In this document: one piece after another, positions 87 to 21,676 of the stretch | Numbering within the stretch: position 1 is the first letter of the stretch | Layout of the letters: each line of letters begins with the position of its first letter | Assembly (NCBI GenBank): GCA_900314395.1 | Contig: OMVB01000008.1 | Coordinates: forward strand, 1 to 46,437 | Source of the DNA: an uncultured Prevotellaceae bacterium | GTDB taxonomy: Bacteria; Bacteroidota; Bacteroidia; Bacteroidales; UBA932 | Direction: 5' to 3' | Length of the DNA stretch: 46,437 nt | Notes under the pieces: generated by a model | The model's input: only the letters and a program-made list of their open reading frames with translations | Told to the model about the DNA's origin: nothing | Database searches by the model: none | Program-made: the position numbers and the translations under genes

Positions 87-122
87 AGATTTCTCGACTC
101 GCTGCGCTCGCTCGAAATGACA
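87..122 (-). repeat. Dispersed 36-bp repeat, copy A (TGTCATTTCGA...AGAAATCT)
   Basis: Read on the minus strand this segment begins TGTCATTTCGAG and ends GAGAAATCT. It matches 31 of 36 positions of the segment at 21454-21489 inside trmB, with no gaps. Shorter relatives with the same TGTCATT start and AGAATC end lie at 9484-9510 and 35341-35367. This is intergenic, whereas the trmB and 35341 copies overlap coding sequence. Confidence 0.85.
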
Positions 123-176
123 AGAAAGAGCGCTCGAAATGACAAGAAAGAGCGCTCGCTCGGAATGACAGAGAAC
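111..176. repeat. Short tandem array of the right part of the dispersed repeat
   Basis: The unit CTCGAAATGACAAGAAAGAG plus CG (22 bp) occurs at 111-132 and again at 133-154 without change, then continues as a degenerate third copy containing CTCGGAATGACA. The unit contains the terminal CTCGAAATGACA of the 36-bp repeat at 87-122, so the array looks like local duplication of one end of that element. The copies have no unique spacers, so this is not a CRISPR array. Confidence 0.8.
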
Positions 177-20442: not shown

Positions 20443-20861
20443 TGAAACTGCTCACAACAGTATCGGCAATACTTTCGGTGCTCCTGGCCTCCTGTGCCCG
20501 TCCGGCATCGGACGAGTCGTATTCGCTGCTGGGACCGGACGGCTGCGCCGGGTTTTCCCTGGACATGACGGACTCGCTGGACTACAGCCTTCGCCTTTAT
20601 GTCTACGCCGATGCCGCCCCGTCGGACAGCCTTCCGGTACGGATAGATTACCTTTCCCCGGATGAAAAGGTTTATCGGGAGGATATTATTCTTACCAATG
20701 CCGATGCTGCATCGGGTTCTGCCCGCCAGATGGTCCTGTGCCGTGACCTGAGGCTTGGTTTCCGTCCGGCCTGCTACGGAGTCTGGAAGGCATCGGTATA
20801 TATTAAAGACAATGAAAACATTACCGGAGCAGGGCTCCGGCTATATAGGGAAAAGCGCTGA
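20442..20861 (+). CDS. gldH: GldH-type lipoprotein
   Basis: This 139-aa small lipoprotein has lipobox LLASC with Cys 18. The mature domain is a short beta-sandwich-like run (YSLRLYVYADAAPSDSLPVR, then DLRLGFRPACYGVWKASVYI). Position directly after ricT, with a shared ATGA, is where GldH lies in Bacteroidota, including non-gliding gut members. The name therefore comes from synteny and general pattern, and gliding is not implied. It is slightly shorter than typical GldH (about 150-160 aa, from memory). Its stop overlaps the trmB ATG. Confidence 0.7.
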   Translation: MKLLTTVSAILSVLLASCARPASDESYSLLGPDGCAGFSLDMTDSLDYSLRLYVYADAAPSDSLPVRIDYLSPDEKVYREDIILTNADAASGSARQMVLCRDLRLGFRPACYGVWKASVYIKDNENITGAGLRLYREKR

Positions 20862-21676
20862 TGGGACACGGAAAACTAAAGAAATTCGCAGAGAACGAGA
20901 CCTTCCGCTGCCTGCTTCAGCCGGCCGCGGAGGAGGTTCTGGCCGGCAGGGGAAAGGAGTTTTTGCTTAAGGATCATCCGATAAAAGGGCATTGGAACGA
21001 GCAGATGTTCAGCGGCGCCGCGCGCCCCATTGTCCTGGAGCTCGGCTGCGGCCGCGGAGAATATTGCATCGGCCTTGCCCGGCGCACTCCGGACAGCAAT
21101 TACATAGGCGTGGATATCAAAGGCGCAAGGCTCTGGAAGGGGGCCAGGGAGGCTACTGTCAACAATATGGGAAATGTGGCTTTCCTGCGCACCAGGATAG
21201 AGTTTATCGAGGCTTTTTTCGCCCCTGGGGAGGTGTCGGAAATCTGGCTCACTTTCTCTGACCCGCAGCTGAACCATGAGAATTCGCGGCTGTCTTCACC
21301 GCTTTTCCTGGAACGCTACAGCAAGTTCCTCAAGCCGGGCGGGCTTGTCCATCTTAAGACGGACAGCCGCTTCCTGTATGAGTACACCCTGGCTCTCTGC
21401 AAGGAGAACGGCCTTGAAATTGTGGCCGCTACAAATGACCTTTACGGAGACCCTGTCATTTCGACCGGGCAAAGCGAGTGGAGAAATCTTAACCCCGCAG
21501 TCCGCGAGGTGAAAACCTACTACGAGACAATGTTCAGCCGCCAGGGCTACAAAATCACCTACCTTTGCTTCCGGCTGTCTCCTTCCCTGCACAGTCCGGC
21601 GTCATTTGACGCGGACTACTGGCGCTCCGTCGAGGGCCCGCGCCACAGCGTAGCCCTTCCGGATTTTCAGTTATAA
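20861..21676 (+). CDS. trmB: tRNA (guanine-N7-)-methyltransferase
   Basis: This 271-aa enzyme methylates N7 of G46 in the tRNA variable loop. The SAM motif VLELGCGRGEYCIGLA lies near residue 60, the acidic NYIGVDIKGARLWKGA follows, and the DPQLNHENSRLSSP and KPGGLVHLKTDSRFLYEY motifs complete the catalytic core. The C-terminal signature REVKTYYETMFSRQGYKITY is intact. Between NDLYGD and that motif the protein has extra residues PVISTGQSEWRN (198-209), which are encoded by a 36-bp dispersed repeat. The tail beyond residue 245 also seems longer than usual. The reading frame is kept, so the enzyme is probably active. Confidence 0.94.
   Translation: MGHGKLKKFAENETFRCLLQPAAEEVLAGRGKEFLLKDHPIKGHWNEQMFSGAARPIVLELGCGRGEYCIGLARRTPDSNYIGVDIKGARLWKGAREATVNNMGNVAFLRTRIEFIEAFFAPGEVSEIWLTFSDPQLNHENSRLSSPLFLERYSKFLKPGGLVHLKTDSRFLYEYTLALCKENGLEIVAATNDLYGDPVISTGQSEWRNLNPAVREVKTYYETMFSRQGYKITYLCFRLSPSLHSPASFDADYWRSVEGPRHSVALPDFQL
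21454..21489 (+). repeat. Dispersed 36-bp repeat inserted in frame in trmB
   Basis: This segment starts TGTCATTTCGACC and ends GAGAAATCT. It aligns without gaps to the reverse complement of 87-122, with 31 of 36 identical positions; the differences fall at positions 12, 15, 18, 19 and 27. The length is a multiple of three, so the trmB frame continues. The codons read here give residues 198-209 in a surface-type loop just before the conserved C-terminal TYYE motif. Confidence 0.85.

Follow-up and report, generated by a model that had tools for sequence, protein, structure and literature searches.

The window, i.e., the whole analysed stretch of 46,437 nucleotides, carries on its forward strand a trmB gene coding for a tRNA (guanosine(46)-N7)-methyltransferase, in which a segment of 36 bases closely resembles an intergenic repeat located at the beginning of the same stretch. 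The features concerned are the following:

20861..21676, forward strand: trmB, tRNA (guanosine(46)-N7)-methyltransferase of 271 residues (NCBIfam NF001080; Foldseek)
21454..21489, forward strand: in-frame REP-type copy (TGTC tag, left arm, loop, right arm), 31/36 identical to 87-122, member of the repeat family and also occurring in genome G324 (locus L144)
21512..21526, forward strand: KTYYE segment K218-E222 with the conserved TxxE (alignment A2), shortly after the insert
87..122, reverse strand: full intergenic copy of the repeat, matched by the palindrome pattern at C170:88-121
123..170, reverse strand: two upstream half-units, each a left arm plus a short spacer, with arms at 134-144 (TGTCATTTCGA) and 160-170 (TGTCATTCCGA)

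The host protein matches the NCBIfam model NF001080 above the equivalog cut-off (E 9.4e-74, 247.4 bits for a cut-off of 132), and its top Foldseek matches are 2fca (BsTrmB), followed by 7nyb. Residues T219 and E222 are invariant in alignment A2, which was read without L155, a locus with a stop codon. By position, T219 and E222 of the K218-E222 TxxE segment would be the equivalents of T217/E220 of E. coli TrmB, as these residues appear in the accessible part of PMC10130221. The AlphaFold2 prediction, built from 36 alignment rows, reaches a mean pLDDT of 88.7 but falls to 56 for residues 201-210, with 82 and 88 in the adjacent blocks; the C-terminal end is low too. According to this model, the insert would form a low-confidence loop within a confident TrmB fold.

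The likeness of 21454-21489 to the reverse complement of 87-122, pointed out in a preliminary description of the window, was recomputed at 31 identical positions out of 36 without gaps. The runner-up ungapped placements of the 36-mer in the window reach 23/36. At the base composition of the window, the probability of 31 or more identities is 2e-14 per placement, rising to about 2e-9 when one 36-mer is compared with the two strands and to 5e-5 for all against all. Both segments are members of one dispersed palindrome of the form GTCATTTCGA...GAGAAATC. The same description had presented the segment as an in-frame insertion of exactly 12 codons. The length corresponds to 12 codons and the reading frame is open through to the TxxE motif, as claimed, but the 36 bases lie out of phase with the codons, since they begin with the third base of CCT (P198), run through 11 complete codons (V199-N209) and end with the CT of CTT (L210). 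Owing to this offset, the repeat alone encodes VISTGQSEWRN, the P and L residues being common to the flanks.

Copies and structure of the palindrome

The pattern GTCATTTCGA-gap-GAGAAATC gives 36 matches, 18 per strand, in the 2,297,140 bases of the window genome (G000), and the same pattern read backwards as a control gives none genome-wide. Since three of the matches are nested readings of copies already counted, 33 distinct copies are dispersed in this genome, the 36-mer of trmB being one of them. Genus-wide, the element occurs in 39/81 genomes with 1 to 86 matches each; order-wide, it occurs in 27/149 genomes, many of them with other inner sequences, and the length of the inner part is variable.

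The 34-base form consists of five outer pairs, mismatched G/A positions, four inner pairs and a 3-base loop, and is devoid of a CCA tail. Covariation was assessed on 44 distinct 34-base copies, related to each other, that were taken from the own-genome and genus listings. The nine-pair hairpin is formed in 99.5% of the cells, and for each of the four inner pairs at least one copy differs on both sides, which adds up to 30 cells, a value as high as this occurring in 0/500 shuffles. Only the four inner pairs count in this respect, because the search pattern fixes the GTC tag as well as the five outer pairs, neither of which thus brings covariation evidence. Nearest-neighbour DNA folding of five copies gave values no better than those of dinucleotide shuffles and therefore failed to provide thermodynamic support for the hairpin. 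The G and A residues sit between the outer and inner pairs on both sides of the hairpin, where we take them to form sheared G-A pairs, and the GNA loop presumably corresponds to a stable DNA mini-hairpin; a literature search on GCGNAGC hairpins returned no papers. No target-site duplication was identified at the element.

The common short form is free of stop codons in five of its six frames (read by eye), and peptides from all five open frames are seen in proteins, namely CHFDRA, VISSEVEKS or VIST, SFRPE, DFSTSLEMT (in the window genome) and RFLD...ARND, the latter from the TrmB of genome G006 (L042).

The left arm GTCATTYCGA occurs 76 times in the window genome, in 42 clusters. In 18 of these clusters, left arms of the same strand follow each other in tandem at intervals of 20 to 27 bases, and inverted pairs were seen in L042, C48 and C148. 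Tandem left half-units stand upstream of full copies at 123-170 of the window and in contigs C13, C103, C106, C135, C138 and others of the same genome. Inside genes, the spacing of the arms is a multiple of three in all 13 cases (8/8 in the bracketed genes defined below), compared to 5/19 outside genes (Fisher 3e-5; 6e-4 for the bracketed genes only), a contrast with some circularity in it, as frameshifted genes would escape recognition. As a guess, the half-units could originate by slippage at a stalled hairpin.

Acceptor sites in TrmB and other genes

The trmB gene was found in 56/61 genomes of one search and in 286/300 of another. Among 120 different TrmB frames read, 115 possess a recognisable linker, defined as the stretch from the DLY strand to the TxxE motif, and five are devoid of a recognisable motif. 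The linker comprises 21 residues in the window protein; the shortest ones of the genus measure 11-12, and those of outgroups of the same order 10-11 (11 of 14 outgroup loci, L075 and L076 being mis-parsed and L073 lacking the motif). The shortest relatives, with linkers of 10-12 residues, thus lack the additional residues, as the preliminary description had anticipated for repeat-free relatives, and the TrmBs with similar residues, namely those of G324 (L144) and G006 (L042, VISTERREWRDL), contain this repeat at the DNA level. Genome G324 (RGIG4399, a MAG from roe deer omasum) is the nearest relative found. Its linker contains the same element at the corresponding position, GTCATTTCGACCGAGCGAAGCGAGTGGAGAAATC, with two differences in 34 bases from the window copy, preceded by a second, shorter element. 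Most simply, the insertion predates the split between the window genome and G324, and the window copy is starting to decay.

Across the genus, the parsed linkers range from 11 to 93 residues, and most of the long ones contain no element seen by a tagged-palindrome detector, the background of which is one match in 20 mononucleotide shuffles of the window. This detector recorded 13 elements in 10/115 TrmB genes, ten of them in the linker (8.2 kb in total) and three in the other 96.7 kb; the latter (L046, L081, L082) lie near the TrmB C-terminus, which represents a second acceptor site. The linker of G097 contains a different palindrome, GTCCTGCCCGACCTGATCGGGCAT, recognised by eye. When L140, whose arms show one and two mismatches, and L081, assigned by eye, are added to the rows retained by the detector, a GTC-tagged element occupies the linker in 9/105 rows, consisting of genus genomes plus some near loci of uncertain genus. 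On a quick protein-core tree with several long branches, this distribution takes eight changes, of which at least five are forced by starred branches, compared to a shuffled mean of 8.8; the element is thus unclustered on the tree. At another position, site B, the segments SVMSSEVETS (G324, L144), SVIAGSDRQS (G097, L146) and SVMPDQIGHL (G321, L147) of the three nearest relatives are followed by the same residues, and the window protein has no inserted segment.

Copies inside genes were likewise found elsewhere in the window genome. For eleven of the 42 left-arm clusters, the gene concerned is bracketed by a family model or homologues; these genes correspond to AroC, a phosphonopyruvate-decarboxylase-like enzyme (first site), TruB, an M16 peptidase, MetG, CitC-CitG, an AGE-type epimerase, SodB, UDP-glucose dehydrogenase, TrmO and TrmB. 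Seven further clusters are less certain: four occur in frames with a family hit, not clearly within the matched span (the second site of the decarboxylase, an AddB-like frame, an HU-domain protein and an alpha-amylase), and the frames of the other three (C48:858, C70, C159) have no family support. The remaining 22 are apparently intergenic upon frame inspection. Two clusters, in apparent rplC and aspS genes (named by eye), were discarded as chance arms.

The sites were compared in G324, G097, G321, G016, G013 and G068, the genes read varying between genomes. UDP-glucose dehydrogenase contains the element in the window genome and a different insert in G097; in G324 and G016 the site is empty. 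SodB has two sites in the window genome and none in G016, while that of G324 shows one CHSERSEES copy and, at site 2, a different palindrome. Depending on the gene, the number of units varies as well: TrmO has four units in the window genome, two groups in G324 and none in the other four rows, and the AGE-type epimerase has three, five and none in the other five rows, respectively, these other rows being more distant genus members. TruB shares elements between the window genome and G324, plus one private to the former. In one alignment each, the segments are absent from 1ues_A and 3pid_A, the best-aligned proteins of solved structure for SodB and UDP-glucose dehydrogenase, respectively; the solved homologue of TruB aligned only outside the insert region. 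The recurrence of VISSEVEKS, CHSERSEES and DFSTSLEMT in unrelated proteins is a warning for annotation, since such peptides can be repeat DNA rather than protein motifs.

Spread of the element

The window genome possesses three Y1-type transposase genes, with open frames of 268-310 residues, and the search for a transposase covered this type only. Their locations, based on open frames, are:

C141:506-775, Y1-type transposase gene
C58:4825-5076, Y1-type transposase gene
C83:4021-4188, Y1-type transposase gene

No left arm with up to one mismatch occurs around these three genes, where a single right-arm-like match with one mismatch was seen, and 33 Y1 stretches from the genus, with the C141 gene counted twice, contain no copy of this element type. 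Tagged palindromes with other stems number three in 100 kb of Y1 stretches and six in 156 kb of background flanks; as four of the latter fall by position within trmB itself, two are left outside it, and three against two are too few for an enrichment to be either shown or excluded. Genomes with the repeat account for 35/61 of the Y1-positive and 4/20 of the Y1-negative ones (Fisher p 0.0045, Spearman 0.31), a difference confounded by completeness and kinship. A Y1 (RAYT-type) transposase mobilising the element in trans is considered as a possible agent.

It is very probable that the trmB segment is a TGTC-tagged, REP-type element spread as DNA, which inserted in a permissive loop and persisted where it remained in frame. 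A dispersed, non-autonomous palindrome with a TGTC/CGTC tag would spread as DNA, probably as a single-stranded hairpin moved in trans. It would have entered trmB in an open frame, in the permissive loop located just ahead of the TxxE motif, most simply before the split from G324, and the protein would have retained its fold with a lengthened loop. Because the common form is open in five of six frames, insertions falling in loops in a suitable frame would survive selection and the others would be lost. We infer that the mobility proceeds by transposition, that the added peptide is neutral and that single-stranded DNA is the active form. The insertion event itself, assumed in the preliminary description, finds support in the repeat-free relatives, the dispersed copies and the copies inside genes. 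Neither of the two outcomes named there as refuting, the same residues in TrmBs unrelated to the repeat or a match at chance level, was encountered.

The same element could also have entered and changed its sites by recombination, through ectopic gene conversion together with slippage of the replication machinery between hairpins, rather than by a transposase. The different site B segments that precede identical residues in G324 (read at the protein level), G097 and G321, the three units of the AGE-type epimerase compared to five in G324, and the lack of a linked transposase in the Y1 stretches all speak in favor of such recombination. However, conversion hardly reaches new sites devoid of homology, and the clean empty site in UDP-glucose dehydrogenase indicates that new insertions do occur, so that we hold recombination to be the unlikelier origin, although one to be taken seriously. 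Selection for a useful peptide or mRNA hairpin, regulating TrmB or its activity, might be suspected from the repeated hits in a loop that adjoins the TxxE motif. Elements, stems and lengths nevertheless vary or are absent among the genomes, many unrelated enzymes hold the same repeat, and the element does not cluster on the TrmB tree, all of which makes this usefulness improbable. A chance resemblance, or an ordinary lineage-specific growth of the loop unrelated to the repeat, could draw on the broad range of linker lengths and on the long loops free of detected elements; it is practically dismissed by the 31/36 match, the exact arms, the better-preserved orthologous copy of G324 and the genome-wide count. 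The genomes compared are drafts, largely MAGs, and that of the window is distributed over 187 contigs with 4.24% contamination, which could suggest an assembly or binning artefact. Such an artefact is scarcely credible in view of the same element in a separately recorded genome (L144, RGIG4399) and of other copies occupying the same loop elsewhere.

With the spread of a REP-type element as the preferred reading, one observation goes beyond simple transposition: at some genic sites, the stems differ between relatives whose flanking residues agree. It is conceivable, albeit rather doubtful, that these loops serve as standing REP slots, in which the tag and the tail are kept in frame over long periods while the hairpin between them is replaced by that of a different REP type and stalled replication adds half-units of 21-27 bases. 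Should this hold true, the proteins concerned would carry a continually rewritten, DNA-driven loop.

Relation to known repeat families

The closest likeness is with the CGTC-tagged REPs which, in the accessible text of Di Nocera, De Gregorio and Rocco 2013 (PMC3733652), possess an unpaired C/TGTC tag, occur in multiple copies, some of them head-to-head and some intragenic, and have no linked transposase, all properties encountered here. The same text lists the Bacteroidetes among the phyla with CGTC repeats and describes REPs, of either class, that lie within the genes for TruB and tRNA synthetases in other bacteria; its authors found no transposase next to CGTC repeats. TGTC stands ahead of the stem at 21454 and in the other full copy of the window; in the remaining copies the GTC tag is not independent evidence, since it is part of the search pattern. 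The A-T pairs at the first two stem positions, described for the CGTC-tagged REPs in PMC3733652 as far as accessible, are present in 44/44 copies (columns 4-5 with 32-33), being fixed by the pattern except in the two copies of the window. Families 1-4, as described in the part of PMC3733652 at hand, have stems of 8-9 bp, loops of 4-5 bases and a CCA-like tail; with its five outer pairs, mismatches, four inner pairs and 3-base loop, the present element falls outside them. According to the same portion of that source, head-to-head dimers predominate among the CGTC REPs and half-unit arrays, present here, are not described. The GTAG REPs associated with RAYT transposases (REPtrons; PMC3733652, in its accessible text) are short, palindromic and dispersed, as is this element, which differs by the lack of a GTAG tag and by zero copies of its type beside the Y1 genes in the stretches read.

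The comparison with the palindromic elements of Rickettsia (RPE), proposed in the preliminary description, appears apt as an analogy. In the accessible parts of PMC10969869 and PMC3733652, these are short palindromes lying in frame in many unrelated genes and adding an extra peptide, as in the present case. Compared by description only, the RPE measure about 150 bp and form ten families (PMC10969869, accessible part), in contrast to about 25-40 bp for this element of gut Bacteroidales.

Intragenic palindromes of Rickettsia and other bacteria, as well as CGTC repeats in Bacteroidetes, are already in print. The literature searched, which excludes most subscription papers, lists no Bacteroidales gene reported to contain such repeats. 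As far as this literature goes, the host group, the broken-stem type, its frequent presence in genes of this genome and of the genus, and the repeated use of two TrmB loops would be new, and so would the arrays of half-units and the stems that differ while their sites stay fixed. Protein-invading palindromes, best known from Rickettsia, would thereby be extended to a large genus of gut Bacteroidales. In its hundreds of species genomes, one and the same gene can be compared with its site empty, filled or decayed, so that a spread of very short palindromes without a known transposase becomes testable, together with the way proteins absorb them.

Other segments were observed as well. An unrelated-looking IPPTP(N/D)GAGPS segment lies in frame both in TrmB site B of G023 (L048) and in the UDP-glucose dehydrogenase of G097 (L239), and perhaps belongs to another gene-invading repeat family. 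The long linkers of L053, L055, L066, L151 and L154 have in common, in either orientation and as judged by eye, a GC-rich motif around CCCTCGGCCACGTAAGAGGGGGGACC, which probably corresponds to a third repeat family in the same TrmB loop. Finally, the TrmB of G031 (L056), in which the detector sees no element, displays a low-complexity linker of 93 residues rich in G, E, V and A.
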